Source of the DNA: Neotamlana nanhaiensis
GTDB taxonomy: Bacteria > Bacteroidota > Bacteroidia > Flavobacteriales > Flavobacteriaceae
NCBI RefSeq assembly: GCF_000943555.1
Contig: NZ_JTDV01000010.1
Span: 310,001 to 374,000, forward strand
Reading direction: 5' to 3'
DNA: 64,000 bases
Part shown: one piece after another, positions 15,916 to 36,405 of the stretch
How positions within the stretch are numbered: position 1 is the stretch's first letter
How the letters are laid out: each line of letters begins with the position of its first letter
Notes under the pieces: generated by a model
Told to the model about the DNA's origin: nothing
What the model saw: the letters and a program-made list of their open reading frames with translations, nothing else
Databases searched by the model: none
Program-made: the position numbers and the translations under genes

Positions 15916-16006
15916 CAAATGTATTACGATAACTCACTGAAAAAGCTTATTTTAGTTTAAGGGAATATATTGTGTAGACGAATGGTATTTTAGTATAGAC
16001 GAGTGA
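15916..16006 (-). promoter_or_regulatory. LytTR-type operator and -7 box upstream of the receiver-glycosyltransferase gene
   Basis: The -7 box TACATTTG (15923-15916, minus strand) fits TAnnTTTG and lies 31 bases before the ATG at 15884. Fifty-one bases farther upstream is GTGTAGACGAATGGTA (15972-15987). A second half-site, TAGACGAGTGA, starts at 15996, exactly 21 bases from TAGACGAATGG at 15975. No -33 TTG is seen, as expected of an activator-dependent promoter. On the other strand a -7-like TATCTTTA (16031-16038) precedes the GT-C gene, so the site may serve both directions. The motif recurs at four other loci in the cluster. Confidence 0.75.
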
Positions 16007-16060
16007 AAAAATTTAGTACAAACCAATTTATATCTTTACTTTTATTAACAAAACAACAAG

Positions 16061-19000
16061 TTGAAACCCGAAAAATCTAACAAATATTTAATAGCAGCGC
16101 TTCTTTTAGGGTTGGCATTTCATGGGAGTTCTATTTTTTTTACTTTAGAAACCACTTACGATGCTTTGATACATTTGTTTTTTGCCGATCATTATGCGAA
16201 TAGCTGGTTTGAACCATGGAATTACGAATGGTACACTGGTTTTACCGTACAAAGCTACCCGCCATTGGTGCATCAATCTATTGGTTTACTGTCGTATGTT
16301 GGCGGTGTAAAATTTGGAATGTTTGCAGTAGCGCTAATTGCAATTATTTTATTTATAACGGGTTCTTACCGCTTTTCTTTACTCATTTCTGGCAACCGAA
16401 CTGTTGCTGGTTACGCCTCGGTTTTAGCTGTATTTTCGTCGTCGTTTGTAGAAACCTTACATATTTTTGGTCAGTTACCTAGTATTGTTGGTGTATCGGT
16501 TTTAATGCATGCCTTACCCGAAATATATTTATGGATTAAAACGGGAAAAAAATGGTATTTAGCCACCTGTTTATCGCTTATTGCTGTTACTGTAACCTCG
16601 CATCACGTTACCCCTATTTTTGGTATGGTATTTTTTATATTCCCATTAATAGGAATGGTAATTATGGATGTTTCTCGAGAGCAGGTTAACACCACTAAAG
16701 AAGTAACTTTCAAGATTTTTTTAAACAGCTTTTTTAAACTTTTTAAACGTATTGTTATTTTTGGAGGTTGCTCGCTGGTTTTAATAGTAGGTTGTATACT
16801 ACCTTATTGGATAAACTCGAAAGCCAACCCAATAACTCAAGTTCCTATTCCACACGGTTCGCGCGATAATTTTTTAGAAATAACCTCGTCCGGACTCGTA
16901 TTTTTCCTAATTCCTTGGGGCGTTTTATTAGTGCTTTTACCTTATATTTTTTACAGATATTATAGCAAGCGTTATATTTTTTTTGGTTTATCTATTACCA
17001 TTCTAACTATTTTAGGTACGGGCGGAACGACGCCAATTCCAATTAAAGTTTTAGGCGAAACGGCATTTAACATATTAACCTTAGATAGATTTACACTTTG
17101 GGCTTCTATAATGTCCATTCCTCTTATGGGTGAATTTGCATATCGATTTGTTGAAGGCGATATGAAAGCATTAATTCAAAATAAGTTTGGTGCAATATAT
17201 CATCGTATAATTGGCGGAATTTTAGCTGGTTTATTTGTGTTTATGGTCGTTTTTACTATGAGTTTAAATTATTTTAGACCATCGCAACCGCAAAAAATTA
17301 AAATGCTACCTATTGTTAATTTCTTAAATCAAGACGACCATGACAAGTGGCGATTTTTAACCCTAGGATTTGGCGATCAAATGGCGTGGCTAAGTGCACA
17401 AACAAACGCTATGACTGTTGATGGAAATTACCATTCGGCACGTCGTTTACCCGAATTAACCACGCGCCCCATAGAACGTTTAGAAAACTCTAAATTTAAA
17501 GGTGTAGCTGGCATTGGCTCGTTACAACAATTTTTAACCACTCCCGAAAAATATAATTTAAAATACATTTTCTCGAACGATAAATTCTACGATCCTATTC
17601 TATTTTTTTGTGGTTGGCAACGTCTGCGACAATTAGAAAATGGTATTATGGTTTGGGAACGACTAAATATTCCTCCAGTTTCATCTATTTTACCCAAAGA
17701 AGATGTCGCTAAATGGCTAAAAATTCACTGGGGCATTATGCCGTTTTTAACTGTTTTAATTGCTTTTATTTTAAATATACAAATGCTATGGGTTAACATG
17801 CTAAAAACCCGTGTAAAGCCTCCTAAGGCGTTTTTAAAATTTAGTATTACTTACAATAAATTTAATAGAAATGTTTTAAGAATTACACATGTGTGGTCCC
17901 TTTTTCTGGCGATAGTTGTGTGTTACGGCATTTATTTATTTTATTTAAAAAACGATTCACAACGAAGTCCTGAAAATGCAATTATAGCATATTATGATGC
18001 ATTAGATTTTAAAGAATTTGAAAAAGCCCACAGCTTAATAGACCCTAAAAGCAACATACCCATTGCGCAATATATGTTAGAAATTTCGGTTACAGACGGC
18101 TTATTAAGCAGTTATGCTAAAATGGATGCCATAAAAGCCGAAGTAATAATGCATAACGATAGTACAGCCACAGCTACGGTATTTACAAACTGGATTACCC
18201 CTTTGGAAAAAATTGCTAAAACCGACTATAAATCGCTTACTAAAATAAAAGGAAAATGGTATTTATTACCCGATGATCTTGATAACGATTTACCTCCAGA
18301 CCAACTTTACTCAAACAACGTTACTAAATATTACAACCAAGGTCGCCGCCGTATTACCACCGAACAAACACACCACGAGGATATTTTAAAACAACCCGTT
18401 TTAGAGGTAATTTCTGCAAAACTTGTAAAATACAATGGTAGTTATGCTATAATTGGCGAAGTACAAAATATTGACAATGTACCAGCCGATATAATTTTAA
18501 AAGGTACACTTTACAACAATAACAATAAACAACTAGCAACCTATAATGCAAAATACCATGTAAAGCATAAACTTATGCCTAAGGAAACTAGTAGTTTCAG
18601 GATTAATTTTGAAGGCATCGCATGGTCTAAAACACAAGATTCTATTCCAGATACTTTTAACCCCGATGAATTTACTCCCGTAGCATTCGAGGAACAACCC
18701 ACCAAATTCAATTTACAAGCAGCTGGAAACGTAGCCGGATCTGATTTATACAAAAGTGTTGTACTAAGCGACCTAAGTATTAACCAAAACAGTATAAGCG
18801 GCAATTTATTTAATAGTGGCATTCAAGAAATTACTATTCCTCAATTACTTATAACGTATTACGATGAAAATAAATCGATGCTTTGGGTGGACCACTTATT
18901 TATAAAAGAAGGTGTTAGGCAAGAGCGCAAACAAGATTTTAATTATCCTATTTTAAATGAAGGTGCTGTAGAAATAATTAATTCTAGCATGAAAAACATT

Positions 19001-19153
19001 TTTGTTAATGGTTTACCTAATGAAGATATTTCGAATAAAATTGTTCCTAATCGTATTTTAAATCATGTAAATAGCGAGCTTCAACCTATAAATCACCCTG
19101 ATTTTAGTTTTATAAAAATTGAAATCAACACCTATATTGCTAGTCCATTTTAA
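16061..19153 (+). CDS. Large polytopic membrane protein, GT-C glycosyltransferase-like, with periplasmic C-terminal domains
   Basis: A 1030-residue protein. The start is a TTG: an in-frame stop lies 15 bases upstream and no ATG lies near. Residues 1-400 contain about ten membrane helices. The first external loop has TLETTYDALIHLFFADHY, an acidic-aromatic segment like that of GT-C enzymes, which use lipid-phosphate sugars. It resembles membrane proteins often labelled 6-pyruvoyl-tetrahydropterin synthase-related. A soluble segment (about 410-550), further helices near 565 and 625, an NTF2-like domain (about 645-760, with NAIIAYYDALDFKEFEKAHSLI) and beta-rich sequence follow. I infer it transfers or polymerises sugars of the matrix glycan, perhaps using the product of the divergent GT2. 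The next gene starts immediately after its stop. Confidence 0.75.
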   Translation: MKPEKSNKYLIAALLLGLAFHGSSIFFTLETTYDALIHLFFADHYANSWFEPWNYEWYTGFTVQSYPPLVHQSIGLLSYVGGVKFGMFAVALIAIILFITGSYRFSLLISGNRTVAGYASVLAVFSSSFVETLHIFGQLPSIVGVSVLMHALPEIYLWIKTGKKWYLATCLSLIAVTVTSHHVTPIFGMVFFIFPLIGMVIMDVSREQVNTTKEVTFKIFLNSFFKLFKRIVIFGGCSLVLIVGCILPYWINSKANPITQVPIPHGSRDNFLEITSSGLVFFLIPWGVLLVLLPYIFYRYYSKRYIFFGLSITILTILGTGGTTPIPIKVLGETAFNILTLDRFTLWASIMSIPLMGEFAYRFVEGDMKALIQNKFGAIYHRIIGGILAGLFVFMVVFTMSLNYFRPSQPQKIKMLPIVNFLNQDDHDKWRFLTLGFGDQMAWLSAQTNAMTVDGNYHSARRLPELTTRPIERLENSKFKGVAGIGSLQQFLTTPEKYNLKYIFSNDKFYDPILFFCGWQRLRQLENGIMVWERLNIPPVSSILPKEDVAKWLKIHWGIMPFLTVLIAFILNIQMLWVNMLKTRVKPPKAFLKFSITYNKFNRNVLRITHVWSLFLAIVVCYGIYLFYLKNDSQRSPENAIIAYYDALDFKEFEKAHSLIDPKSNIPIAQYMLEISVTDGLLSSYAKMDAIKAEVIMHNDSTATATVFTNWITPLEKIAKTDYKSLTKIKGKWYLLPDDLDNDLPPDQLYSNNVTKYYNQGRRRITTEQTHHEDILKQPVLEVISAKLVKYNGSYAIIGEVQNIDNVPADIILKGTLYNNNNKQLATYNAKYHVKHKLMPKETSSFRINFEGIAWSKTQDSIPDTFNPDEFTPVAFEEQPTKFNLQAAGNVAGSDLYKSVVLSDLSINQNSISGNLFNSGIQEITIPQLLITYYDENKSMLWVDHLFIKEGVRQERKQDFNYPILNEGAVEIINSSMKNIFVNGLPNEDISNKIVPNRILNHVNSELQPINHPDFSFIKIEINTYIASPF

Positions 19154-20359: not shown

Positions 20360-21870
20360 GTTTAAACAAAACTATTATGCGAACCATACTTATTGCATCG
20401 TATATTATGCTTATAGCCCTTTTAACTTATGGTTTAAGTGCTATTTTTAGCTATTTAAATACAGGAGCCGACCGCAGTAAAATGCTCCATACAGAAATTG
20501 CAAAGGTGGAGCAGTATTTACCAAAAATTATTTGGCAACCATTACGTAACGAAGGTCGCCCCATGGATAATGAAAACTTAAATACCTTACAAAACGATTA
20601 CCTCGATGCATGGTACGTTAAGCAAATTGCTTACAAAACCAATAAAATAGCTGGCATTAAAGATTACTATACCGAAAGTGCACGCGAAAATTTGTATCGC
20701 TTTATTGAGCTTAACAAAAAAAACAACATTTCGATTGAAGCAACAACGCTTAACCATAATCCTAATTTAGATTTTTTTAGTGAAGATGGCCAACTTGCCG
20801 TAATTACCGATAAGGATGTAACTGAATACAAACGCATATTTAAAAACGATAGTCTTTTACACGAAACCAATGAAACTTCGACTTACAAAATTGTATTTTT
20901 ACTTGAAGATGGCTTTTGGCGTATAAGGCATATGGTAAAAGAACAAACACAAGAAACAAAACAAACCTCTGCAACTATAAGCACCAATAGTTTAAACATT
21001 AAAGGTATAAATTACTATCCGCAAGCCACACCATGGGATATGTTTGGCGACCAGTTTTCGACCGACACTTTAGCGCAAGACTTTAAAATTATTAAAGATG
21101 CTGGATTAAATTCTATTAGAATTTTTGTGCAATACGACGATTTTGGTGCGGCAAAAGTAAATCCTTTAAAACTTAAAAAACTATTACAAACACTGGATAT
21201 TGCAAAAGAGCATAACTTAAAAGTGGTTTTAACCTTGTTTGATTTTTATGGCGATTATTCGATGATGAATTGGACACTTAACCAACGCCATGCCGAACAA
21301 ATAATTAGCGCAGTAAAAAACCATGACGCTATATTGGCTTACGATATAAAAAACGAACCAAATTTAGATTTTGAATCTAGAGGTAAACAAAATGTAATAG
21401 CTTGGTTAGAAAAAATGATTGATTTAGTAAAAACAATGGATAAAAAACACCCGGTTACCATAGGATGGTCCAACACCCAAAGTGCCACAATTTTATTGAG
21501 TAAAGTTGATTTTGTTTCGTTTCATTATTACGAAGATTTAAAGCAATTAAACGAGGCGATAACATCCTTAAAAAAGCAAATAAAAAACAAAGCTATTGTT
21601 ATGCAGGAATTTGGATTATCGTCGTATAACGGGTTTTGGAAACCCTTTGGAAGCACCGAAGAAGACCAAGCAAATTATCATAAAATGGCACAAAACATAA
21701 TTGCTAAAAATGAGTTACAATTTATGTCTTGGACCTTATACGACTTTGCTAAAATACCAAAGGAAGTCGTTGGTCGACTTCCATGGCGAAAACGAGTTCA
21801 AGGGCATTTTGGCTTTATTAACCAAAACCGAGAGACTAAACCCGCCTTTCAATATATTTCTAAAGAATAA
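20353..21870 (+). CDS. Membrane-anchored GH5-like glycoside hydrolase
   Basis: The 505-residue protein has an N-terminal transmembrane anchor (about residues 10-30), a periplasmic NTF2-like domain (about 65-200, ending FLLEDGFWRIRHMVKE) and a TIM-barrel domain (about 215-500). The barrel has clan GH-A hallmarks: the acid/base Glu in YDIKNEPNLDF and the nucleophile Glu in VMQEFGLSS. Cellulase-like family 5 is the best description; the glycan is not predictable. Exopolysaccharide operons often include a hydrolase (PslG, PelA, PgaB), so trimming or release of the polymer made by the neighbours is likely. It overlaps the Ig-like gene by 7 bases, and its 3' end overlaps the convergent glycosyltransferase gene by 11 bases. 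Confidence 0.85.
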   Translation: MVSLNKTIMRTILIASYIMLIALLTYGLSAIFSYLNTGADRSKMLHTEIAKVEQYLPKIIWQPLRNEGRPMDNENLNTLQNDYLDAWYVKQIAYKTNKIAGIKDYYTESARENLYRFIELNKKNNISIEATTLNHNPNLDFFSEDGQLAVITDKDVTEYKRIFKNDSLLHETNETSTYKIVFLLEDGFWRIRHMVKEQTQETKQTSATISTNSLNIKGINYYPQATPWDMFGDQFSTDTLAQDFKIIKDAGLNSIRIFVQYDDFGAAKVNPLKLKKLLQTLDIAKEHNLKVVLTLFDFYGDYSMMNWTLNQRHAEQIISAVKNHDAILAYDIKNEPNLDFESRGKQNVIAWLEKMIDLVKTMDKKHPVTIGWSNTQSATILLSKVDFVSFHYYEDLKQLNEAITSLKKQIKNKAIVMQEFGLSSYNGFWKPFGSTEEDQANYHKMAQNIIAKNELQFMSWTLYDFAKIPKEVVGRLPWRKRVQGHFGFINQNRETKPAFQYISKE

Positions 21871-23077
21871 CTTCGTTTGTAGCTAATTCTTCTCTATTAT
21901 TTCGCTTTGATAGTATACTTTTAAAAGTAGCCACATACATTTGAGCTATTTTAGACATGGGGTATGCCGTAGCTGCTTTATAATTGGCTTTTCCAAGCTT
22001 AACTCGGTATTCCTCATTGGTTACAATGGCTTCAATAGCATTAGCTAAACTAGTTACCGAGGTTGGCTCGAAAAACTCACCGCGATAACCTTCATCTTTT
22101 ATTAAAAGTGCTAAATCTCCTAAATCGGGCATTACAACCGCTTTCCCATAACTACCCGCTTGATGTAAAACTCCAGAACTTCCAGTAGTTGAAGTATATG
22201 GAAATACCACCACAGCACTATCGTTAAACAAACCAGGAACCTCATGCTCTTCTACATAACCTGTAAATCGTAGTTGCTTAACATGACAATATTGTTGTTT
22301 TACCCCCTCTAAATATCCTGGAACATTTGGGTTATCGGTTCCTGCAATTACAATTTCAAGATTCAATCCTGTTTTAGTTCGCACTTGCTCTACGGCTTCA
22401 ATCATCTGCTCTACCTTTTTATAAGTACCAAACTTACCAAAAGTCATAATTTGCATTGGCGCTTTTGGTATGTTATAATTTGGCTCTTCAGCTATCTCAA
22501 ACGTACCATGAGGTATTAATTTCACGTTTTTAGCGTGATATTTATCCTGTAAAATATCAACATACTTTTGCATAGTTAGTGCAACGGTATCGGCTTGAAG
22601 TATTAAACGTGTTAAACTAGAACCAATAAAACCATATATTTTTTGCATAAGCTTACTATTTGTAAAACCTGCACTGCCTAAATCTACCTCTTCTAAAATA
22701 TTATGAAGCAAAACTATACTAGGAATACGCTTTAATTTACAAACAAGTGGCAACATTAAACCTAAAGCGGCAGCTACTTTTTTATCGCCAAATTTCATAA
22801 ACTGTAAATTAAACAATACCGCATCGGGTTTCGTATTGTTAATAGCCTTAGTTACACTAAAAATATTTTTATAACTATTAAAACTCCAACATTCTTTAAC
22901 AGTAATTTTACAACCTGCTTCGGTAAAGTTAAGATCCTTATTGCCTTCTGTTTTATCGGTTAGTAATATAAGTTCTGTAATATCTTCCTGTTGCCTAAAT
23001 TGTTTTACAAGATGGTATGCATACTCATTTAAAGTAACCTTACTTGGCGGATAAGCTGTAACTAGTGCTAATTTCAT
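21860..23077 (-). CDS. Family 4-like (GT-B) glycosyltransferase
   Basis: The 405-residue protein has a GT-B fold pattern. The N-domain begins KLALVTAYPPSKVTLNEYAYHLVKQF. The C-domain has MTFGKFGTYKKVEQMIEAV, IVIAGTDNPNVPGYLEGV, LRFTGYVEEHEVPGLFNDSAVVVFPYTSTTGSSGVLHQAGSYG and the acidic nucleotide-sugar segment near GYRGEFFEPTS. It should add a sugar from a nucleotide-sugar donor to a lipid-linked intermediate in the cytoplasm. It is preceded by a LytTR-type operator, and its 3' end overlaps the convergent hydrolase gene by 11 bases. Confidence 0.9.
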   Translation of the reverse strand: MKLALVTAYPPSKVTLNEYAYHLVKQFRQQEDITELILLTDKTEGNKDLNFTEAGCKITVKECWSFNSYKNIFSVTKAINNTKPDAVLFNLQFMKFGDKKVAAALGLMLPLVCKLKRIPSIVLLHNILEEVDLGSAGFTNSKLMQKIYGFIGSSLTRLILQADTVALTMQKYVDILQDKYHAKNVKLIPHGTFEIAEEPNYNIPKAPMQIMTFGKFGTYKKVEQMIEAVEQVRTKTGLNLEIVIAGTDNPNVPGYLEGVKQQYCHVKQLRFTGYVEEHEVPGLFNDSAVVVFPYTSTTGSSGVLHQAGSYGKAVVMPDLGDLALLIKDEGYRGEFFEPTSVTSLANAIEAIVTNEEYRVKLGKANYKAATAYPMSKIAQMYVATFKSILSKRNNREELATNEVIL

Positions 23078-23103: not shown

Positions 23104-23194
23104 CAAATTTGAGGATTTACCTTACTTTAATAAGTAATTTTAGATAGAACGCTATTTTAGTGTAGACGAATGGTAATTTGCTTTAGACTAGACT
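23104..23194 (-). promoter_or_regulatory. LytTR-type operator and -7 box upstream of the GT-B glycosyltransferase
   Basis: The 16-bp word GTGTAGACGAATGGTA is at 23160-23175. A partial second half-site, TAGACTAGACT, starts at 23184, 21 bases from TAGACGAATGG at 23163. Fifty-one bases downstream on the minus strand is CAAATTTG (23111-23104), one mismatch from TAnnTTTG, 26 bases before the ATG at 23077. The second half-site overlaps the stop codon of the upstream flippase gene. Confidence 0.72.
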
Positions 23195-24452
23195 ATTTTT
23201 TATGATTTAACTTAAAAAACGCCATTTGAATAATAAGTAAAAGTAACATAGCTATTATTTGCATATGTACAACCTGAGATAAGCTATCGTGAAAAAACAC
23301 AACTAATCCCATTTGCAAAACCCCAAAAACACCCGATATTATAACGGGCAAGTATTTATCGAGCGATAAATAATAATATGCAAAAATATTTGAAATAGCG
23401 AACATCGAGGTGGCTAAAGCGTATTTCCATAATAAGGGTGCCATAGCTAAATAACTTTTACCAAATAACAGGGTAATAGCCGTTTTTGGAAATAAGGCGC
23501 ATACTAATGTAATTAAAATGGCAATTCCTGCTATATAGGCCACATACTTAAATAAAACTGGAGCTGTTTCTTTTCCTTCTTTTTTTAATTGAATTACTGT
23601 TGGTAATAATAACATTACAAACATCCAAGCTATAAAATAAACGATACGTCCTATTAAAGCTAACGATGCATACAAGCCTGCATCGTACGATTCAAAATAA
23701 TGCTTTACCAATAAAATATCGCTATTATTTATTATAATTTGGGTTAACTCATAAAAAGCTGTAATTACAAAAAAACTTCTAATTGCTTTTGTATTAGTTT
23801 GGCTTAACGATAAATGCTTTACCGATACTATTTTAGGCATCTTAAATGGTACTAAGCCAAACATAAACGACACTAAAATACCAATGGCTATTACTATTGA
23901 AGACTGCAAATTTAACATATAAATTAACCCTAAAGTAATAACCAAACGGCTTAACATTTCGCCTTGGTAGGTAATTGACAGCGACTTAAACGCTTTTTTC
24001 CCTTGGTAAACACCGCGATTTACGCTCATTATAAAATACAGCGGCACACCAAAGCCAAAAACCATAAACATACTGGCAGACGATGTATTGAAAACCACTT
24101 GCAATTGGTTAGCAAATAAAACAATTAGCAATCCTAAAACAACACCTACCAAAAGGGCATTCTTATAAATTTTACTAATAAAACTGTTAAACGTATCGTT
24201 CTCAAACAACACCGAAAATTTTGCTGTAACCAATTGAAATGTCATGGCTGCAAAACTTAAAACCAGCAAAAAAGTAATTAAAACGGCTGCATCTGCAAAT
24301 TGCGCAGGTCCTAAAATACGACCCAGAATTAAATTGTATAAATAATTACCTCCATTAACAATTAGTACGCTAAGCATAAACAATTGTTCTGGAGTAATTT
24401 TCCTTGTTTTTAAAGTGGCTAAAAGTTGCATGATAGATTTGGAGTTTATCAA
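23193..24452 (-). CDS. Wzx-like polysaccharide flippase (MATE/MOP superfamily)
   Basis: A 419-residue protein with about 12 predicted membrane helices and no soluble domain. It has the MOP-exporter pattern of O-antigen/capsule flippases: LYNLILGRILGPAQFADAAVL in helix 1-2, GVYQGKKAFKSLSITYQGEMLSRL, and NNSDILLVKHYFESYDAGLYASLALIGRIVYFIAW. Such proteins move lipid-linked repeat units across the inner membrane. It lies 19 bases downstream of the STAS gene and probably shares its operator-controlled promoter. Together with the glycosyltransferases it marks this region as a polysaccharide export locus. Confidence 0.88.
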   Translation of the reverse strand: MINSKSIMQLLATLKTRKITPEQLFMLSVLIVNGGNYLYNLILGRILGPAQFADAAVLITFLLVLSFAAMTFQLVTAKFSVLFENDTFNSFISKIYKNALLVGVVLGLLIVLFANQLQVVFNTSSASMFMVFGFGVPLYFIMSVNRGVYQGKKAFKSLSITYQGEMLSRLVITLGLIYMLNLQSSIVIAIGILVSFMFGLVPFKMPKIVSVKHLSLSQTNTKAIRSFFVITAFYELTQIIINNSDILLVKHYFESYDAGLYASLALIGRIVYFIAWMFVMLLLPTVIQLKKEGKETAPVLFKYVAYIAGIAILITLVCALFPKTAITLLFGKSYLAMAPLLWKYALATSMFAISNIFAYYYLSLDKYLPVIISGVFGVLQMGLVVFFHDSLSQVVHMQIIAMLLLLIIQMAFFKLNHKK

Positions 24453-24783: not shown

Positions 24784-24853
24784 CAAATATCATTTAAATA
24801 TCAACCGACGGCTTTTAAATTTCGGTGAGTTGCAATTTGCTGTAGGTGAATGA
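24784..24853 (-). promoter_or_regulatory. Diverged LytTR-type operator and -7 box upstream of STAS-flippase
   Basis: TGTAGGTGAATGA at 24841 is a diverged copy of the 16-bp operator word. A related half-site, TCGGTGAGTTG, starts at 24822, 21 bases from TAGGTGAATGA at 24843. On the minus strand GATATTTG (24791-24784) is a 7/8 match to TAnnTTTG and lies exactly 51 bases from the 24843 half-site, the same spacing as at the other loci. The site also lies 46-77 bases upstream of the plus-strand TPR/beta-barrel gene, where TATCACTA at 24879 is a weak -7 candidate. Confidence 0.6.
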
Positions 24854-27581: not shown

Positions 27582-30008
27582 TCACTCCTTCATGAACGTA
27601 CCAGAGTAAACTCTTTTATTGCTATCAATCAATTTAAATTTATATAAACCTCTCGATAAATTCGGGGCGCTATATGTGATTGCTTTACCGTGTGTTAAAA
27701 TATGTTGTGTATCTACAGTTCTACCTAGCATATCGTAAACTTTTATATCAACAAATTGAGCATTGCTTTTAAGCTGTACTGTTGTTTTTGTGGTAAACGG
27801 ATTTGGGTAAGTATTTAAACCTTCAGCTTCTTCAACTTGAGTATTAGACAAACTTGCCTCGCTTGAAAATGCTAACTCGCTTATTGACAACGTAAATGGT
27901 TGCAGTGTTGAATAATTCCCTAAAACCGAAAACACTATGGTTTTTATATTAGTTATATCTGCTGAGTTACCATTTGCATCCTTAAAATCTGAAAAATTAA
28001 TGACGTGCATAGTTTCGGTACTATTAGCTGGTAATGTGTAACGCAATCTATTATTCCAATCGGTTAATTCTTCAGGCATTAATACAATTTCTACTGGTTG
28101 CGAATTAAAAATTTCGAATTGAACACTTGTAAACTCTGAAACATTTAAGGTTTGATCGCCTGGTAAAATATGTCGGAATAAATTAACATTATCTCTAACA
28201 CTTCCAGAAACCATTGGTTGTCTGTTAACCTCATAAACATTATCGCTATAATTTGAAGCTTCATTATCTACTAAAAAAGTATTTATATTGGCGGCTTCAT
28301 CTAGATAATCTAACCCCCAAGGACCATCAGCTAAATACAAGGCATCTTTTTGGGCAGATGTATTCGTAGCTAACGAGAAGCCTATATCAAAAAGAACACC
28401 TGTATCAACACTTATTACTTCGTTATAAGCACCACTTAATGCTATATTTTGTTGGATATTAGAATGATTAGACACTTCTGTTTCGGCTACGTTTCCGTTA
28501 AATATAAGGCTGGTAGTTGCGGTTTTATTAATAATATTTAAATGAATTTTTCCGTTTGAATAGTAGCCAGATTTAACAAAAACCGACGGTATTTTATCTT
28601 CAACTAAAGTACTTGTTAAGGCCTTTTCGCTTGTAAACGTATCAATAATATGATTTGCTATTGCAAACACCTGCGAGAACGAACTACCCCATATTTGAAA
28701 ATTATTATAATCGCCTTCTGGGTATTGATCAATATTCCAAAAACTAAATAACTTATTGCTTTCTGCCTCTAACTTTACCGAAAAACTTAAGGTGTATTCT
28801 GTTTCTCCTGTTGCTCGTTTAATTTCTGAATTAATAACGTTATGGCCTCGTACTGTTACGGTTCTAATATCTTCTAAACTCGAACTATTTAATCGGTCGC
28901 AAATTGCTTTAGAGTGGTCGTAAACACCCCCAACTGTTTTAGTAGCTAAAACCGCAGAAACCCTATTTGAATCTTGATATAAATCTACCGAAAAAACTTC
29001 TTGAGCATTAGTAATACCTAACAAATCATCGGGACTAGAAACATATGCCGTTTCATTGCCATACATTCCTGTTTCTGGCAAATATTTTTCTAAAGAGTTT
29101 GTTCCAGAATTTTTGCCAGATTTCCCTTTAGCATAAGTTTTTTGTAAGATTTTTTTATCGGCAACCTTTCCCATAATTTTACGCTTAAAGTTACGCTTTG
29201 CAATTTTACTCGCTAGGTTACCATTACTTTCTAAACCGCCTAAATTAGCCGAAGTTATTGTGGTAGACTCTGGGACAACTTCTGGTAAATTTGTTGTTTT
29301 TATAGCGTCGTAAGGGTTTGCAGTTACATAAAAAATAGCATCATTAAAATCGTTATCGCATGAACTATAATCGCGACGAATATCTTCAAAACCTAAAATA
29401 ACACGGTCGTTTTCAGGATCGGCTAATAATACATTATGGTGTCTTAAATGCTCGTCGGCTTCAGGGTTAAATTCTGTATTTGAATACAACTGCCAATGTC
29501 CCCAAGTAACCAAAGACCCGTTCCACGCATTAGCTAAAAGTACCCAACCAATTACAGTATCTGGTTGAAATGTACCTATTTTAACCTTATTACCAGGTTG
29601 TAGTCCGCCACCGCTTCCAACGGCAGAAACATTAGGAAAAATTATGGTTATATCTTGGTCGGTTGGCATTACCGGATTGGGATCGTTAATATTGTAAGTA
29701 TAAAACCCTAAAACATTGCGGTAGCCGGCACCTTCATCAACAAAAGTAACCCAAACATCGGCAGGTTTTTCAATTACAATATCGGTATCGTAACCCGAAG
29801 AAATATAATGTGGATTGTAGTCTGGAACCGGATAGCCTTCTGGAAGCGAATTACTTACCATTTGCATGGTAGCATCGTCAATGACATCCGAAGTCGGTTC
29901 TAAATACAGTGGCGTTCCATCATAAGTGTAGTCTCCTAAATAGTTAAAGTTTTGAGCAAAACTAAATACCGAGACAATTAAAATTAAAAGTTGTAGTATT
30001 TTTTTCAT
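27582..30008 (-). CDS. T9SS-secreted DUF4114 protein with type A C-terminal sorting domain
   Basis: An 808-residue secreted protein. The signal peptide is KKILQLLILIVSVFSFAQ. Residues about 80-230 form a DUF4114-type domain with RVILGFEDIRRDYSSCDNDFNDAIFYV, an Asp-rich probable calcium site. A long beta-rich middle (about 330-720) follows. The last 80 residues are a Por secretion (type A) C-terminal domain: NTYPNPFTTKTTVQLKS, VYDMLGRTV, LSRGLYKFKL, GTFMKE. It is thus exported by the T9SS (gldKLMN lies in this window) and attached to or released from the surface. The operator upstream suggests a matrix or adhesin role linked to the polysaccharide. It directly follows the sensory operon on the same strand. 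Confidence 0.88.
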   Translation of the reverse strand: MKKILQLLILIVSVFSFAQNFNYLGDYTYDGTPLYLEPTSDVIDDATMQMVSNSLPEGYPVPDYNPHYISSGYDTDIVIEKPADVWVTFVDEGAGYRNVLGFYTYNINDPNPVMPTDQDITIIFPNVSAVGSGGGLQPGNKVKIGTFQPDTVIGWVLLANAWNGSLVTWGHWQLYSNTEFNPEADEHLRHHNVLLADPENDRVILGFEDIRRDYSSCDNDFNDAIFYVTANPYDAIKTTNLPEVVPESTTITSANLGGLESNGNLASKIAKRNFKRKIMGKVADKKILQKTYAKGKSGKNSGTNSLEKYLPETGMYGNETAYVSSPDDLLGITNAQEVFSVDLYQDSNRVSAVLATKTVGGVYDHSKAICDRLNSSSLEDIRTVTVRGHNVINSEIKRATGETEYTLSFSVKLEAESNKLFSFWNIDQYPEGDYNNFQIWGSSFSQVFAIANHIIDTFTSEKALTSTLVEDKIPSVFVKSGYYSNGKIHLNIINKTATTSLIFNGNVAETEVSNHSNIQQNIALSGAYNEVISVDTGVLFDIGFSLATNTSAQKDALYLADGPWGLDYLDEAANINTFLVDNEASNYSDNVYEVNRQPMVSGSVRDNVNLFRHILPGDQTLNVSEFTSVQFEIFNSQPVEIVLMPEELTDWNNRLRYTLPANSTETMHVINFSDFKDANGNSADITNIKTIVFSVLGNYSTLQPFTLSISELAFSSEASLSNTQVEEAEGLNTYPNPFTTKTTVQLKSNAQFVDIKVYDMLGRTVDTQHILTHGKAITYSAPNLSRGLYKFKLIDSNKRVYSGTFMKE

Positions 30009-30028: not shown

Positions 30029-30100
30029 CAAACTTATATCAATACATACAGTATTTTTTTAATTTTCGACTGACAAAACATTAAGTGTAGACGAATGGTA
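30029..30100 (-). promoter_or_regulatory. LytTR-type operator and -7 box upstream of the DUF4114 protein gene
   Basis: The exact 16-bp word GTGTAGACGAATGGTA is at 30085-30100. On the minus strand, 51 bases downstream of its TAGAC, is TAAGTTTG (30036-30029), a full match to TAnnTTTG, 20 bases before the ATG at 30008. A clear second half-site at 21 bases is not seen here; TCGAC at 30066 is a weak candidate. The site lies just past the stop of the LytTR gene. Confidence 0.75.
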
Positions 30101-30118: not shown

Positions 30119-30835
30119 TTATAGCAAATTTAAACGTTTCATTAACTCAGGGCGGTTAGATCGGCTTACAGGTATTACATCCTTTTTAATTAAAACACTA
30201 TTATCCTCTATATCAACAATTTTTTTAATGTTAATAATAAAAGACCTATGCACTTTTAAAAACACATCGTTTGGTAGTTTTTCTTCAATTTTTTTTAAAG
30301 TTGAATGTACCGTGTAGTTTTTATCTTCGGTTTTTAGCTGAATATAATCGCCTCTAGCTTCAACCATATAAATACTTGGAATATCAATTTTTATTAAACG
30401 TCTATCTATATTTATATACAAATCATTATCCGATGATGCTTCTACCTCTTCGGTTGAAGTAACGGTTTGGGTTGAAGTAGGACTTGAAAGTGATTGAGCC
30501 TTTTGAATACCTTTTAAAAAGCGTTCTTGAGAAATGGGTTTTACCAAATAATCAACAATACAATTGTACTCAAACGCTTGAATTGCAAATTTAGGATCGG
30601 AGGTTGTTAAGATTATTTTAGGAGGTTTTTTTATGGTATCAATAAAATCGAACCCCGTAAAATCTGGCATATGTATATCTAAAAATATTAAATCGACTTG
30701 ATTTTGATTTAAATATTTTATTGCCTGAATTGCATTAGGAAACTCTTCTAAAACGTTTAGAGACGAGACGGTTGAACATAATTGACCAATGATTGCGCGA
30801 GCAGTAGCTTCATCATCAATAATAATACAATTCAT
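30119..30835 (-). CDS. LytTR-family DNA-binding response regulator
   Basis: A 238-residue regulator. The receiver domain (1-120) has IIDDE, phospho-acceptor Asp in LIFLDIHMPDFTG, Thr in ILTTSD and Lys in YLVKPIS. After a Ser/Thr-rich linker, the LytTR domain (about 140-238) has the family pattern: IYMVEARGDYIQLKT, TLKKIEEKLP, FLKVHRSFIIN and VIPVSRSNRPELMKRL. LytTR domains bind tandem 9-10-bp half-sites about 21 bp apart. It is the last gene of the seven-gene sensory operon and the only LytTR protein in the window, so it is the natural candidate for binding the ACCATTCGTC operators, including the one before its own operon. Confidence 0.93.
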   Translation of the reverse strand: MNCIIIDDEATARAIIGQLCSTVSSLNVLEEFPNAIQAIKYLNQNQVDLIFLDIHMPDFTGFDFIDTIKKPPKIILTTSDPKFAIQAFEYNCIVDYLVKPISQERFLKGIQKAQSLSSPTSTQTVTSTEEVEASSDNDLYINIDRRLIKIDIPSIYMVEARGDYIQLKTEDKNYTVHSTLKKIEEKLPNDVFLKVHRSFIINIKKIVDIEDNSVLIKKDVIPVSRSNRPELMKRLNLL

Positions 30836-30844: not shown

Positions 30845-31162
30845 TTATAGTTGATCTAAATACTTTGTTATATTTTGTAAAATAGCTTCAAACTCGTTTT
30901 TAAGCTCGGTTTTGCCTTCAATTAAGTTTTCTTCGTAAGCCACAGCTACAGTATAACTTTTTTCTAGCCCTAAAATACTAATTTTATGCTTAAGTTTGTG
31001 TACATTTTCGGCGGTTTCTTTATGTTTTTTCGCGGCCAAGTTGTTATAATACACTTTCTTTTCTTCTGGAAACTCTATTTTAATGATATCAATTAGCTTT
31101 TGTTCGAAGACTTTATCACCTCCAGACATGTTTTCTATATACGACAAATTTGGTTGTTCCAT
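30845..31162 (-). CDS. Hpt (histidine phosphotransfer) domain protein
   Basis: A 105-residue all-helical protein consisting of one Hpt domain. The phospho-accepting histidine lies in ENVHKLKHKISILGLEK, at HKLKHKISILG; the first His of that segment (about residue 55) fits the usual HxLKG-like motif. Free Hpt proteins shuttle phosphate between receiver domains in split phosphorelays. It lies 9 bases upstream of the LytTR gene and 4 bases downstream of the second histidine kinase gene, which places it in the middle of the relay. It is comparable in role to HptB, which acts with the NosP-linked kinase NahK in Pseudomonas. Confidence 0.87.
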   Translation of the reverse strand: MEQPNLSYIENMSGGDKVFEQKLIDIIKIEFPEEKKVYYNNLAAKKHKETAENVHKLKHKISILGLEKSYTVAVAYEENLIEGKTELKNEFEAILQNITKYLDQL

Positions 31163-31166: not shown

Positions 31167-32216
31167 TTATTTTTTTATGGTAAAATAAAATGTTGTACCC
31201 TTTCCTACCTCAGATTTTAACCAAATCTCTCCGCCATACATGGTTACAATTTTTTTGGCAATAGATAGTCCCATACCTATAGTACCAACTTTAATTTCGA
31301 GTTTTTGAAAGGTTTTAAATATTTTATCGAAATACTTCTCTTCGATACCTTTACCATTATCTTTTACAAAAAATTCCCAATGGCTTTCATGTTCTGTATA
31401 TCCTATTTCAACTTTACCTTGTTTTTTATCATTAAAGTTAATGGCGTTGGTAATTAGGTTTCTAAAAACTTGCTGTAATCTATATTTCTCGCCCTTAATT
31501 AAAGGCAATTGTTGCAATTTAACAACCGATATATTATCTGGTATTTCAAGTCTACCTAAAACTTCGTTTACAGCATAATCTACATCTACATTATAAATAC
31601 CTTCTTGAGCTCTACCAATGGTTGAATATTCTAAAATACCATTAATTAAAAGCTCCATTTTTTCAACATGATTTCTAATTTGATAAATAGTTTGTTTATC
31701 GCTTTCGTTAAACACATCTTTATTATCATCATACAGCCATAAAGTTAAGGTATCGATACTTCGCAATGGCGATTTTAAATCGTGCGATATCATGTGGGCA
31801 TAATCGCTTAATTCTTGGTTTTGATACGATAATTCTTCGAGCAATTTTTCGCTTTTCTGATTAATTTCAACAATTTTTTGCGCTTGGTCTTCAATAAAAT
31901 TAGCGAGGTTTTCAACATCAAAACTGCCAACATCTTTATTTTTTTGGGTTGAAGATTGGTCTATATTTAATGTTTCAACAATGTTTTTTAGCTTATTTAT
32001 TACCTTTTTTTGTGCCTCGGCCTCTTCCTGAAGTTTTTGATTTGCAGTAAACAATTCTTCCGAACTTATTTTCATAGCGCGTTGTACCATAACAAATTGC
32101 TCGTCGAAATTATTGTATGAATTATTAACGGCTTCCATAAAAGCCTTAACTTCCTTATTTTCTAAAAGGTCGTCGTTTAAATATTTACGTATTTGTCTTT
32201 TTAATAACGAATTCAT
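31167..32216 (-). CDS. Cytosolic histidine kinase, NahK-like (FIST/NosP partner)
   Basis: A 349-residue kinase with no membrane segment. The N-terminus reads LLKRQIRKYLND, FMEAVNNSYNNFDEQF, MKISSEELFTANQKLQEE, the layout I recall from kinases encoded beside FIST/NosP genes. A coiled coil (about 50-130) leads to HisKA with the phospho-histidine in MISHDLKSPLRS (about 143), then the ATPase domain with FRNLITNAINF, VKDNGKGIEEKY and GTIGMGLSIAKKIV. Its start overlaps the stop of the FIST gene by one base, so the two are likely co-translated partners. Without a receiver domain it must pass phosphate to a separate regulator. Confidence 0.88.
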   Translation of the reverse strand: MNSLLKRQIRKYLNDDLLENKEVKAFMEAVNNSYNNFDEQFVMVQRAMKISSEELFTANQKLQEEAEAQKKVINKLKNIVETLNIDQSSTQKNKDVGSFDVENLANFIEDQAQKIVEINQKSEKLLEELSYQNQELSDYAHMISHDLKSPLRSIDTLTLWLYDDNKDVFNESDKQTIYQIRNHVEKMELLINGILEYSTIGRAQEGIYNVDVDYAVNEVLGRLEIPDNISVVKLQQLPLIKGEKYRLQQVFRNLITNAINFNDKKQGKVEIGYTEHESHWEFFVKDNGKGIEEKYFDKIFKTFQKLEIKVGTIGMGLSIAKKIVTMYGGEIWLKSEVGKGTTFYFTIKK

Positions 32217-33349
32217 TATTCACTTAATAATGTTACAGTCATGGTTTGATTGTGTAACTGACAATTATTTTCGCCGTTGAAGGGCGCTATTTCACCATAG
32301 GAATAAAACCCAGAAACCACTGTGTTTTCACCAACTACTGATATTACTTCTTCAACTTCTTCTTCTACACGTTGATCTAAAACCAGTTTTCTACCAATAC
32401 AACTTACTAAAAAAGCTATTTCGGGGTCTTTTTTTCGGTTTAAAATGGCTTGTCTTGCGGCTTGTTCGGATGCATTTGCAATATTATCTACATTCGTCAT
32501 CATAAGTTGTACCTTAGAATTTTCGGGAATATCGCCTGCAAAAATCATAGAATGGTCGTCTTCGTTTATGTTAAGAATTGTTCTTACAATAGAGTGGTCT
32601 TCATTTTCAATTTTCACATTCATAGGATACAGTAAAGCTGCTCCTGGTAAGTCTTTCGATTTTTCTCCTAAATATTTTTTATACAAATCTAAAGCTGGTA
32701 AATTATCGAGTTCGTAAAGCACATTACCTTTCGATTTTGTTACAATACGCTCTGGCCCAAAGGGTGTCCATCCGCCATAAATTGAAAATGAGACTTCTAA
32801 ACTATCGCCATAAAACCCAACAGCTACAATTTCGCCTTCCTTAGGGTTTTCGTTATATGATGCTAACGTTTTTTCGAACCTTGCAGCATCGCCACATAAG
32901 CCACCCGTAATTAAAACATTGTTGTTTACGGCAGCGTTCATCCCTTTTGTTAATTGGCTACCGTTAACAAAACTACCTTCGCTTACTATAAAAACAAATT
33001 TTAAATTTTCTTTATTAAACTGATTTATGATATCGTTACCTGTTTTATAACTATCTTCTGTTAATGCCGATACATTACTAGTTTTTATTTCGAATGTACT
33101 TTTTTCAAACTCCATTGCGGTAATGGTAATTGAATCATCATCAACCGATTGTGATGTTATATCGCCACTGGTAGATGCAAAAATTATATGTGCATTTGGA
33201 AATAATGCACTTACTTCGCTATAAATATTATCTTGTTCTAATAAAAAACGATTACCAAAAACCAAAACTAACGGATTGTTTAAGCTCTGGTTTTCACTTA
33301 AATATTCCCAGTCGCTATTTTTTTGTTTTTTTAGTTGAACTATTTTCAT
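32216..33349 (-). CDS. FIST-domain sensor protein (NosP-like)
   Basis: A 377-residue soluble protein with a FIST N-domain (about 20-210: HIIFASTSGDI, FVFIVSEGSFVNGSQLTKGMN, ITGGLCGDAARF, VAVGFYGDSLEVSFSIYGGWTPFGPE) and a FIST C-domain (about 220-375: NVLYELDNLPALDLYKKYLG, and FYSYGEIAPFNGENNCQLHNQTMTVTLL). FIST was defined as a small-ligand sensing domain; several members (NosP) bind haem and sense NO, controlling a co-encoded kinase and biofilm. Haem binding cannot be read directly from the sequence. Its 3' end overlaps the NahK-like kinase by one base, and an H-NOX gene lies two genes upstream. Confidence 0.9.
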   Translation of the reverse strand: MKIVQLKKQKNSDWEYLSENQSLNNPLVLVFGNRFLLEQDNIYSEVSALFPNAHIIFASTSGDITSQSVDDDSITITAMEFEKSTFEIKTSNVSALTEDSYKTGNDIINQFNKENLKFVFIVSEGSFVNGSQLTKGMNAAVNNNVLITGGLCGDAARFEKTLASYNENPKEGEIVAVGFYGDSLEVSFSIYGGWTPFGPERIVTKSKGNVLYELDNLPALDLYKKYLGEKSKDLPGAALLYPMNVKIENEDHSIVRTILNINEDDHSMIFAGDIPENSKVQLMMTNVDNIANASEQAARQAILNRKKDPEIAFLVSCIGRKLVLDQRVEEEVEEVISVVGENTVVSGFYSYGEIAPFNGENNCQLHNQTMTVTLLSE

Positions 33350-33353: not shown

Positions 33354-35336
33354 TTAAGTTTTTTTTAATGTAAAATAAAAGGTTGTTCCTTTAGTAGGTT
33401 CGCTCTCTAACCAAATTTCGCCTTCATGCATTTCTACTATTTTCTTAACAATAGAAAGCCCTATACCTGTTGAATCTTTTCGTTTATTTAAGGAGAGAAA
33501 AATTTTAAATATTTTATCGTGAAATTTTTTATCGATGCCTATACCGTTATCTTTAACCGAAAACTGATAGAAATCGCCTTTTGCTTGCACATCAATCTCT
33601 ACCAAACCAGCTTCTTTGTCTATAAATTTAATAGCGTTACTCATTAAGTTTTGAAACAGCTGTTGCAGTTTAACTCTGTTACCATTAAGGCTTGGTAGCG
33701 TATTTAACACGGTAACGTTTACATGACTAGGCTTGTGTAAAATTCCTATTAAATCGGTAACTAATGTATGTACATTTACCTCCTCTTTTTCACTATCTTC
33801 TGAACCTATACTGGAATACTCTAAAACATCGGTTATTAATTGTTCCATTTTTTCGAGTGTGGTTTCAATATGCGCAATGTTTTGTAAGCTAACAGCATCT
33901 AATTTGTCTTTATTATCTTCTTTTAACCAGCTTACTAAGGCATTAATACTGCGTAATGGCGATTTTAAATCGTGCGAAACCACATGAGCGTATTCGTAAA
34001 GTTCGTCGTTACTTTTTTCTAACTTTTTTAATAGATTCTCTTTTTGTAGTTGTAGGCTTTTAATATCGGTTATATCGAAATTTATTCCAATAGACCCCAC
34101 AACTTCGCCTTTTAAATTATAATTTGGCGCTCCACTTACTAACCAATGCCGTAATTCTCCTGCTTTATTTTTTATACGAACTTCGTAAGAATCTGTTTTT
34201 CCTTTTTTACGATTTCTGTTTTGCTCATTTACAATTTCCTTATCTTCATCAGAGGGTAAAAAATCTTTACCTACTTTACCAATTATTTCATCTTCGGCAT
34301 AGCCCGTCATGTCGTAAAAGCTTTTATTAGCCATTACAATTCTGTCGTTTACATCAACTTCCAATAAGCCCAAATTCATGTTAGAAATTATACTTGAATA
34401 CTTAAACTTTTCAGCTTCTAAGCTTTTTCTATATTGGCGTCTAATGGTAAAATCTTTATACTTCCATAAATGGCCTTTGTAAACACCATCTCTAAAAATA
34501 GGTATATAATCGCGCTCAAAAATACGGTCGTCAATTGTTTCTAAATCTTCATTTAAAACAGGCTTTTTAGAATTAAATGCCGCGGTTATATCGGTAATAA
34601 ATTTTTGGGAATCTTTAAAGCTGTGCTTTATTTCTTCTATTACTGGCAGACAATCTTTACCCACTAATTCGTTGGGTTGTTTCTTAACATTAAAAAACTC
34701 ACAAAATTTATTATTAACAAGAATTATTTTTCGGTTTTCGTCTTCTAACAATACGCCTTCTTCTAGGTTTTGAATTAACGCTGCTAAACGCTCTTCAGAC
34801 TCTATTAATTTTTCTTTTTCGTTTTTTGATTGGGTAATATCTCGAACAATACCGTGTGAAGCAATGGGCACTCCATTATCATAAATAACACTGGCATTAA
34901 TTTGAACTATAATTTTTCGATGATCTTTTGTGGTAATATTAACAACTAAATCGCTTACCGAACCACCTTCTCGATAAACGACATTAAAGGCATTAAAAAC
35001 GTCTATATATTGATCTGGACGCACTAAATCCATTAAGTTACAGCTATCCTTTACACTTTTTAAGCCCAAAAGGGTTACTGCTGCGGCATTCATTTTTATG
35101 ATATTGCCTTCTACATCGGCCACTACATAGGCATCTACAATATGCTCGAAAACACCTTGTAGTTGCGAATCGGTTTTTGCAAAAGTAGATTCTAAACTAG
35201 TATAAGCCTCGGCTAATTTTTGATTAGACTCATACAACTCTGCCGATTTTTGTTCTAAAATAGCTTCAGCTTGCTTTCTAGCGGCTTTTTCGCGATTTAG
35301 AGCACGTTGAAGTATGTCAATTTTATCTTGACTCAT
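33354..35336 (-). CDS. Multi-PAS cytosolic histidine kinase
   Basis: A 660-residue kinase without membrane segments. An N-terminal coiled coil (REKAARKQAEAILEQKSAELYESNQKL) is followed by three PAS domains at about 55-170, 180-300 and 310-430 (VFEHIVDAYVVADVEGNI; NLEEGVLLEDENRKI; SNMNLGLLEVDVNDRI), then HisKA with HVVSHDLKSPLRS and an ATPase domain (QNLMSNAIKF, VKDNGIGIDKKF, STGIGLSIVKKIV). It abuts the H-NOX gene (adjacent stop and start) and lies 4 bases upstream of the FIST gene, so an H-NOX-controlled kinase is the simplest reading. It has no receiver domain of its own. Confidence 0.92.
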   Translation of the reverse strand: MSQDKIDILQRALNREKAARKQAEAILEQKSAELYESNQKLAEAYTSLESTFAKTDSQLQGVFEHIVDAYVVADVEGNIIKMNAAAVTLLGLKSVKDSCNLMDLVRPDQYIDVFNAFNVVYREGGSVSDLVVNITTKDHRKIIVQINASVIYDNGVPIASHGIVRDITQSKNEKEKLIESEERLAALIQNLEEGVLLEDENRKIILVNNKFCEFFNVKKQPNELVGKDCLPVIEEIKHSFKDSQKFITDITAAFNSKKPVLNEDLETIDDRIFERDYIPIFRDGVYKGHLWKYKDFTIRRQYRKSLEAEKFKYSSIISNMNLGLLEVDVNDRIVMANKSFYDMTGYAEDEIIGKVGKDFLPSDEDKEIVNEQNRNRKKGKTDSYEVRIKNKAGELRHWLVSGAPNYNLKGEVVGSIGINFDITDIKSLQLQKENLLKKLEKSNDELYEYAHVVSHDLKSPLRSINALVSWLKEDNKDKLDAVSLQNIAHIETTLEKMEQLITDVLEYSSIGSEDSEKEEVNVHTLVTDLIGILHKPSHVNVTVLNTLPSLNGNRVKLQQLFQNLMSNAIKFIDKEAGLVEIDVQAKGDFYQFSVKDNGIGIDKKFHDKIFKIFLSLNKRKDSTGIGLSIVKKIVEMHEGEIWLESEPTKGTTFYFTLKKT

Positions 35337-35876
35337 TTAATTTTTCTTTATAATGAATTTTACTTCGGTAGCTACATCATTTAGCTTTTCAAACTCTATC
35401 GTCGCTGTTTCATTAAAATGCTCGAAAGTTTTATTCATTAACCCTAAACCAAAAGCATGCATTGCTCTACTAGATTTATAAATTAAAACTAATAGGTTTG
35501 GTGTTTTTTCTAAGACTTGAAATGTTGGCAATTCGGCATCGGGATATATTTTTTTTACCTCCACATGAATGTGATTTTCTATTGAAGCCAGCATTTCAAT
35601 AGGATCGGAATACATTTGCAATATCCCCGAGTAGCTTCGCTTAATTACACTAAAAAAATGTTCGGCGTAAACTTGCAGTAAATCATCGGTAGAAATATTA
35701 GTATTTTCACTTAAATTATTTAGTAATTGTAACATTTCTGAAAACTCGTAGGTTCCTACAGAGGTATAAACTCCTTCAGATTTTAGATTAGAATTGGATA
35801 TTATACTATCAACCATTTCTAAGCCAAATTTATCTTCGACTAAATCAAGAAACTCTGTAAAAACAATGCCTTTCAT
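35337..35876 (-). CDS. H-NOX (haem NO/O2-binding) sensor protein
   Basis: The 179-residue length is typical of stand-alone bacterial H-NOX proteins. It opens KGIVFTEFLDLVEDKFG, the family start. His104 lies seven residues before Tyr111-Pro112, where soluble guanylate cyclase has its proximal haem ligand, and it is followed by IYPDAELPTF. The haem-propionate motif YxSxR is Tyr133-Ser135-Arg137 (LIYKSSRAM). H-NOX proteins bind NO at haem and control a neighbouring kinase or cyclase. The gene overlaps the upstream receiver gene by one base and abuts the PAS kinase. Ligand selectivity (NO or O2) cannot be settled from sequence alone. Confidence 0.92.
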   Translation of the reverse strand: MKGIVFTEFLDLVEDKFGLEMVDSIISNSNLKSEGVYTSVGTYEFSEMLQLLNNLSENTNISTDDLLQVYAEHFFSVIKRSYSGILQMYSDPIEMLASIENHIHVEVKKIYPDAELPTFQVLEKTPNLLVLIYKSSRAMHAFGLGLMNKTFEHFNETATIEFEKLNDVATEVKFIIKKN

Positions 35877-36289
35877 TATATTTGTTTTAGTTCGTTAATG
35901 CTCCAGTACCCTAAAACTCTTTCAATTTTAGAAACATACTCTTCATATTTTAAAGGTTTTATTACATAACCTGCAATACCTATTTTATAGCACTCTAACA
36001 GATCGCGTTGGTTACTCGATGTTGTTAAAATTATGGTTGGAATGTACCTTAAAACATCGTCGTTTTTTAAAATAGTTAAAAACTCAATACCATTTAATTT
36101 TGGCATGTTTAAATCTAATAAAATTATGTCGGGTAATTCACCTTTATTTTGTAAAATATTTAAGGCTTCTTCTCCATTGTTGGCCTCTATAATATTATGT
36201 TTAAGTTGAAGTGATGAAATGGCTCTATTTAGTTTCATAACTTCAATAACATCATCTTCAATTACTAAAACGTTTAAAACTTTGGACAT
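35876..36289 (-). CDS. Stand-alone receiver-domain response regulator
   Basis: A CheY/Spo0F-like protein of 137 residues from the start SKVLNVLVIEDD at 36289. A 19-codon longer ORF would begin upstream of the predicted -7 box (36316-36323) and is rejected. It has the acidic pair in IEDD, the phospho-acceptor in IILLDLNMPKLNG, Thr-Ser in ILTTSSN and Lys in YVIKPLK. It has no output domain. As the first gene of the operon it probably accepts phosphate from one or both kinases and passes it to the free Hpt protein. Confidence 0.9.
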   Translation of the reverse strand: MSKVLNVLVIEDDVIEVMKLNRAISSLQLKHNIIEANNGEEALNILQNKGELPDIILLDLNMPKLNGIEFLTILKNDDVLRYIPTIILTTSSNQRDLLECYKIGIAGYVIKPLKYEEYVSKIERVLGYWSINELKQI

Positions 36290-36315
36290 GATACGCTTTT
36301 TTGTGATTTTGAGTA

Positions 36316-36405
36316 TAAAATTATAATTATGCCTCGAAAATTGCATTATAGTTCGTTAACATAAAAATAAGTGTAGACGAATGGTAATTTGAAACAGATA
36401 AACGG
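36316..36405 (-). promoter_or_regulatory. LytTR-type operator and -7 box of the sensory operon
   Basis: The exact 16-bp word GTGTAGACGAATGGTA is at 36371-36386. A second half-site with 7 of 11 matches, CAGATAAACGG, starts at 36395, 21 bases from TAGACGAATGG at 36374. On the minus strand TAATTTTA (36323-36316), 7/8 to TAnnTTTG, lies 50 bases from the half-site and 26 bases before the ATG at 36289. This implies autoregulation of the operon by its own LytTR protein. The remaining sequence to 36565 is AT-rich, with only weak inverted repeats such as AATTATAT / ATATAATT. Confidence 0.72.

Follow-up and report, generated by a model that had tools for sequence, protein, structure and literature searches.

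Why does one 16-bp word precede several promoters of a single gene cluster, always on the same strand, and which protein would read it? The question is raised by a 64,000-nucleotide stretch of Neotamlana nanhaiensis DNA (assembly GCF_000943555.1, contig NZ_JTDV01000010.1, positions 310,001 to 374,000), hereafter the window, which carries a polysaccharide gene cluster and a sensory operon. By Pfam, the order of the operon on the minus strand is receiver, H-NOX, PAS kinase, FIST, second kinase, 105-aa protein and receiver-LytTR. The original prediction, made from the sequence, had read the word as the mark of a LytTR regulon, and the sequence evidence points the same way: a 21-bp direct repeat, a rigid spacing to promoters without a −33 box, restriction to this cluster in its own genome, conservation across the family and co-occurrence with the LytTR gene. 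We consider it highly probable that the 16-mer, GTGTAGACGAATGGTA, whose 13-bp core is taken as the half-site, is an operator half-site for the LytTR regulator encoded at positions 30119-30835, within the mechanism proposed below.

The operator word is confined to one gene cluster

Exact copies of the 16-mer lie at 15972-15987, 23160-23175, 30085-30100 and 36371-36386, all on the plus strand, and no further copy occurs in the window at up to three mismatches. These are the four places given in the original prediction, which had held that they could not be due to chance; indeed, 0.36 matches are expected in the window and none of 100 shuffles reached four. The genome-wide search that it had proposed was run on the 4.02 Mb and 37 contigs of the assembly: no additional copy was found, exact or with one mismatch, and there were three copies with two mismatches (reversed control, 2). 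The copies are therefore confined to the cluster and are not scattered at random places. A relaxed 17-letter pattern identified, genome-wide and without mismatch, only the window sites at 23 k, 24.8 k, 30 k and 36 k; at one mismatch it returned the 15.9 k site and six places elsewhere (reversed control, 2). When the contig, counted as 188,895 unique bases, was scanned with a position matrix, scores exceeded 15 bits only inside the cluster. The fifth, diverged copy that had been claimed is likewise present at 24841-24853 (TCATTCACCTACA) and matches the variant that precedes the flippase gene in relatives.

The genome listing contains eight exact matches of the 16-mer, a number that the doubling of contig C2 reduces to four. 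This contig, window included, is 377,790 bases long and consists of 188,895 bases repeated exactly, head to tail. The doubling suggests an assembly artefact, because the neighbours are of the housekeeping type (SpoU methylase, Era-like GTPase); such an artefact would also fit the listed contamination of 4.24 percent.

The same promoters carry the site across the family

Conservation was assessed in a family set of 299 genomes, 105 of which encode H-NOX (searched as PF07700). The LytTR protein was matched at E 1e-55 or better in 78 of the 80 H-NOX genomes searched (the exceptions being G049 and G253) and at E 1e-50 in all 12 additional ones. With the window genome excluded, the LytTR gene lies within 8 kb of H-NOX in 73 of 77 matches; these 73 linked loci and the window constitute the mapped set of 74 loci. 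In the order, a LytTR orthologue was found in 16 of the 196 genomes searched; two of these 16 lie beyond the family, with identities of 53 and 43 percent. The operator word itself is present in all three of the other genomes searched in the window's genus. At three loci (L094, L095 and L102, of G024, G131 and G087), a second LytTR gene stands in tandem behind the first.

A site matrix was trained on the upstream regions of the mapped loci and scored on the same regions at a threshold of 8 bits. The half-site YCCATTCRTCKACAS (>8 bits) was found upstream of 192 of the 243 genes, compared to 3 when the regions were reversed and 4 when they were reverse-complemented. It precedes the sensory operon in 71 of 74 cases, the flippase gene in 38 of 46, the GT-B gene in 34 of 44, the receiver-GT2 gene in 13 of 23 and the gene after LytTR in 36 of 56. 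Three sensory-operon regions are without a site: in G213, only 25 bases upstream are covered; in G135, the site starts 16 bases ahead of the tblastn start and so leaves the scored region; and G071 is a true miss. A held-out set was also scanned, made of the 69 loci, among 80 further ones, that share no 200-base probe (one per 1000 bases) with the earlier loci. The site was retrieved in 62 of 62 sensory-operon regions (reversed, 1), 20 of 27 flippase regions (reversed, 1) and 4 of 6 GT-B regions. A chance origin of the word is ruled out by the shuffles, the reversed controls and the held-out set.

The operator is phased with promoters that lack a −33 box

The distance between operator and promoter was predicted to be fixed, and it is: in 121 of the 192 sites, the distance from the half-site to the start of a TTTG is 66-68 bases, compared to a mean of 0.52 sites (maximum 6) at other offsets. 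One 21-bp period nearer or farther, TTTG is found in 11 and 12 of the 192 sites, respectively. Among the 121 well-spaced sites, a partner half-site, defined as 6 or more of 13 letters, is present at −21 in 80, at +21 in 102, on either side in 118 and on both sides in 64, whereas the average at control offsets is 14 percent. The flanking of about half of these sites on both sides was absent from the original prediction. LytTR sites are described as repeats of 9-11 nt with spacers of 11-13 nt (PMC4847170), a description that the 21-bp partner of 118 of the 121 sites fits. In many sensory-operon promoters the strong half-site seems, by eye, to occupy the far end of the array. The promoters had also been said to lack a −33 box, in agreement with which TTG reaches at most 10 of the 121 well-spaced sites at any nearby position.

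This geometry bears on the sign of the control, which cannot itself be read from sequence. The LytTR protein could bind the word and repress, activation then resulting from loss of phosphorylation or from another factor; as described in PMC4064291, AlgR represses some of its own promoters. Against repression, the sites are placed upstream, at a single distance from promoters devoid of a −33 box. This is the usual layout of activated promoters, and we regard repression as unlikely.

The operator tracks the LytTR gene rather than H-NOX

A strict 14-mer operator pattern, CCATTCGTCKACAS, has 152 matches in 78 of the 299 genomes, four of them from the doubled contig (reversed control, about 4). It is found in 65 of the 105 H-NOX genomes and in 13 of the 194 without H-NOX (Fisher p 5.5e-25, uncorrected for kinship). 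Eighty H-NOX-less genomes, a selection that covers all 13 carriers of the 14-mer, were searched for the LytTR protein: an orthologue is present in five, three of which carry the 14-mer. The 1030-aa protein of the polysaccharide cluster is full length in two of these 80 genomes, both with LytTR. In four genomes, LytTR is far from H-NOX, and the operator stays with LytTR in three of them (G172, G227 and G011), where operators precede a receiver-LytTR pair with TTTG at 67. These three genomes rule out that the operator is tied to H-NOX; the fourth (G179) has no site. In its distribution among these sequences, the operator tracks the LytTR gene rather than H-NOX.

These data also bear on whether a DNA-binding protein encoded elsewhere binds the word, the LytTR gene being a mere neighbour or target. 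The window genome does contain several LytTR-type paralogues, and binding by the LytTR protein is a prediction. However, the latter is the only protein of the sensory operon with a match to a DNA-binding domain (Pfam), and the operator stays with LytTR where H-NOX is elsewhere and is largely missing where the LytTR orthologue is missing. The 21-bp direct repeat is of the LytTR type, and, among the matches listed, the paralogues of the window genome have no adjacent operator match (17-letter pattern). Another binding protein is thus quite improbable. Finally, although four identical 16-mers could recall a functionless dispersed repeat or a recent duplication, the 16-mer and 17-letter scans found no similar copies elsewhere in the genome and rule out a dispersed repeat, and the words share one orientation and one promoter distance and are conserved at the promoters of relatives, so that this explanation has practically no likelihood.

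Several observations weigh against the assignment of the word to the LytTR regulator. Fifty-one of the 243 upstream regions have no site, mostly those of the gene after LytTR and of receiver-GT2. The matrix was scored on its training regions, and the held-out loci, being related to those used for training, are not fully independent. The sensory-operon promoters are irregular, with TTTG at 66-68 in 24 of 71 and, in the held-out set, 2 of 62. The DUF4114 site is the only one above 12 bits in Kordia, and the LytTR operon of G179 has no site above this value. Ten genomes without a LytTR orthologue have single 14-mer matches; nine are chance-like, and none of the ten has TTTG at 66-68. In the tenth (G158, 87 percent complete), a short contig carries tandem half-sites and may represent a real locus. 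Lastly, the binding, transcription, phosphorelay, activation and gas signal proposed here are all predicted from sequence.

Two loci may have decayed or be decaying. In G049, the H-NOX match (C9:21150-21626) has one in-frame TAG and an adjacent 14-mer, and the LytTR orthologue was not found; its sensory operon is possibly decaying. G201, a genome without H-NOX, LytTR orthologue or 14-mer, retains a 234-residue remnant of the 1030-aa protein (C1:213945-214646), apparently a decayed locus.

A putative circuit from gas sensors to polysaccharide genes

The sensory operon, on the minus strand, begins with a single receiver-domain protein (35876-36289; Pfam, with the start at an in-frame ATG), followed by an H-NOX (HNOB) haem sensor protein (35337-35876), a PAS-domain histidine kinase (33354-35336), a FIST protein (32216-33349), a second histidine kinase (31167-32216), a 105-aa Hpt-like protein (30845-31162) and the receiver-LytTR response regulator (30119-30835), the proposed operator binder. 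In this last protein, the Response_reg (66.5 bits) and LytTR (78.7 bits) matches are both above the Pfam cut-off. Residues D7, D8, D53 and K99 of its receiver, which we take to be the conserved acidic residues, the phospho-acceptor aspartate and the lysine of receiver domains, are invariant in 22 sequences. The HNOB match reaches 137.3 bits (cut-off 25.5), and the H-NOX protein aligns over its full length with PDB 6bdd (E 9.9e-86). PDB 6bdd is the Kordia algicida H-NOX (PMC7356049); the corresponding K. algicida operon (L231) contains a gene whose product is identical to it over 179 residues, and the window H-NOX is 77 percent identical to the Kordia protein. Binding of haem and nitric oxide (NO) by the window H-NOX is putative, from this similarity. 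The FIST protein is NosP-like (Pfam, NCBIfam); its 74.2 bits fall short of the NCBIfam NosP cut-off of 450, and it is taken as a relative of NosP only. The Hpt match of the 105-aa protein is weak (17.8 bits, Pfam cut-off 24.6). H-NOX and the NosP-like FIST protein are thus candidate gas sensors, on both of which the original prediction was silent.

Half-sites of ~13 bp are spaced by 21 bp, that is two DNA turns, and so lie on the same face of the helix; the strong one is found 67 bases before the TTTG of the −7 box and is flanked by a partner at 21 bp on at least one side. In the mechanism that we propose, NO or another gas would be sensed by H-NOX and the FIST protein, which would control the two kinases; these would phosphorylate the regulator at D53 via the receiver and Hpt-like proteins. 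Dimers of the regulator would then bind neighbouring half-sites and replace the missing −33 contact. Family-wide, operators precede the sensory operon, often the gene after LytTR, and polysaccharide genes. Activation would reach the genes for polysaccharide and for the secreted DUF4114 protein, as well as the sensory operon, whose self-activation would constitute a positive feedback.

Operators outside the window-type cluster

In G205, the LytTR gene is at C1:40523 and three strong operators and one weaker operator are located about 2 Mb away (L267, C1:2022001-2042000). No match to the window genes was found at this operator locus, which by Pfam encodes a receiver, a receiver-sugar transferase fusion, an outer-membrane protein, a Wzy_C protein and two glycosyltransferases; the operator can therefore precede a different polysaccharide cluster. 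Receiver-fused sugar transferases recur in the regulon, as a bacterial sugar transferase in G205 and as receiver-GT2 in the window.

These features would fit a family-wide switch from gas to exopolysaccharide, in which H-NOX and FIST inputs converge on one LytTR regulator, an operator of up to three parts phased at 21 bp replaces the −33 box, and receiver-fused transferases add a post-translational layer. The conserved unit would be the operator and not the polysaccharide gene set, and unrelated clusters, of the window type and the G205 type, would therefore have been captured by the same control. We see this broader scheme as evenly poised between being right and wrong.

Seven isolated 14-mer matches, among at least 12, were examined. 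The match of G144 adjoins homologues of the GT-B, flippase and TPR genes and so represents the same cluster at another place. Those of G125, G196 (C2) and G090 lie inside open reading frames (ORFs), lack a partner half-site and are chance-like; another in G196 (C1) is intergenic with no clear promoter, and that of G102 is a tandem. In G286, two similar 86-aa ORFs (L153:3551-3811 and 4172-4432), with no Pfam match above the cut-off, each have an operator-like word upstream, one of these words being an inverted pair.

Relation to known systems

AlgR of Pseudomonas aeruginosa, which controls alginate genes, shares with the present regulator the LytTR class and the control of a polysaccharide (PMC4064291). 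Its core is CCGTTCGTC, also CCGTTCATC (PMC4064291), compared to CCATTCGTC or CCATTCATC here: 181 of the 192 sites are one letter off, and 11 have G at the differing base, as does G011, which has exactly CCGTTCGTC. As far as PMC4064291 describes them, AlgR sites are not necessarily 21-bp repeats and some are far from the promoter, in contrast to the rigid spacing and distance found here; the sensors also differ. The one-letter difference in 181 of 192 sites and the 21-bp phasing rule out an AlgR-class site with the core letters and far, unphased sites. AgrA uses two direct repeats upstream (PMC4227749), and in both AgrA and YpdB, as here, direct repeats precede the promoter with a spacing of ~21 bp (PMC4227749, PMC4847170). 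Their half-site letters are different; here, half-sites are possible on both sides (64 of 121), at a Bacteroidota-type promoter that lacks a −33 box.

On the sensory side, Shewanella, Vibrio and Legionella resemble the present case in that H-NOX (and NosP) adjoin kinases that lead to biofilm control, with outputs that are, as described in PMC8738867, mostly cyclic di-GMP enzymes or quorum sensing. Here, unlike in those systems, signalling would end in a LytTR factor that acts on polysaccharide promoters. In the accessible part of PMC7356049, the Kordia H-NOX is treated as an isolated protein, without its genes or a regulon. No account of an H-NOX-linked LytTR polysaccharide regulon was found by title in the library searched, and the accessible part of PMC6769237, which mentions both H-NOX and LytTR, does not describe one; the other paper there with both terms deals, to judge from its title, with Geobacter chemotaxis. 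If true, our proposal would provide (i) an operator predictive of the regulon across many Flavobacteriaceae genera, (ii) a likely output for the structurally solved Kordia H-NOX, (iii) a tie between a gas signal and matrix polysaccharide by direct transcription, and (iv) a clean case of LytTR activator action at Bacteroidota promoters without a −33 box.

The five promoters of the window

All features of the five window promoters given here are on the minus strand. At the receiver-GT2 promoter, the main half-site (15973-15985; 13 of 13 letters, 23.9 bits) has a second half-site 21 bp upstream (15994-16006; 10 of 13 letters, 19.6 bits); the −7 box TACATTTG (15916-15923) precedes the target gene, a receiver domain fused to a family-2 glycosyltransferase (14697-15884; Pfam). 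The main half-site of the GT-B promoter (23161-23173; 13 of 13, 29.6 bits) is accompanied by a weak one 21 bp upstream (23182-23194; 7 of 13) and by the −7 box CAAATTTG (23104-23111), the target being the GT-B (Glycos_transf_1) glycosyltransferase gene (21860-23077; Pfam). The STAS-flippase promoter has the diverged half-site (24841-24853; 11 of 13, 20.5 bits), its partner 21 bp downstream (24820-24832; 9 of 13) and the −7 box GATATTTG (24784-24791), followed by the STAS-domain gene (24472-24744; Pfam, start set at an in-frame ATG) and, downstream, the polysaccharide flippase gene (Polysacc_synt_3, 23193-24452; Pfam). For the DUF4114 promoter, the main half-site (30086-30098; 13 of 13, 29.1 bits) and the −7 box TAAGTTTG (30029-30036) precede the gene of a DUF4114 protein with a type IX secretion tail (sorting domain) (27582-30008; Pfam). 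The sensory-operon promoter has its main half-site at 36372-36384 (13 of 13, 29.1 bits), a second one 21 bp upstream (36393-36405; 8 of 13) and the presumed −7 box AATTTTAT (36315-36322), assigned by position and weak by sequence.

Second half-sites 21 bp away had been reported for four of the five copies, and a clear partner is indeed found at these four promoters; no convincing one was found for the 30085 site (best, 6 and 4 of 13 letters). The −7 boxes proposed at all five promoters are retained in part: at four of them the TTTG begins at a distance of exactly 67 bases from the half-site, and the box of the sensory operon lacks TTTG. The −7 consensus of Bacteroidota is TAnnTTTG, which is complete in only two of the five boxes. 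The mechanical ORF starts of the receiver (36346) and STAS (24786) genes overlap the promoters. The later in-frame ATGs, at 36289 for the receiver and at 24744 or 24738 for STAS, are the more likely starts, and the promoters therefore fall outside the genes.

As for the polysaccharide cluster itself, a Pel-type identity was discarded, no Pel model being among the NCBIfam matches listed. Between 16061 and 21870, three of its genes lie on the plus strand without an operator on their own strand; they encode the 1030-aa protein, which has no Pfam match, an Ig-like protein and a glycosidase-like protein.

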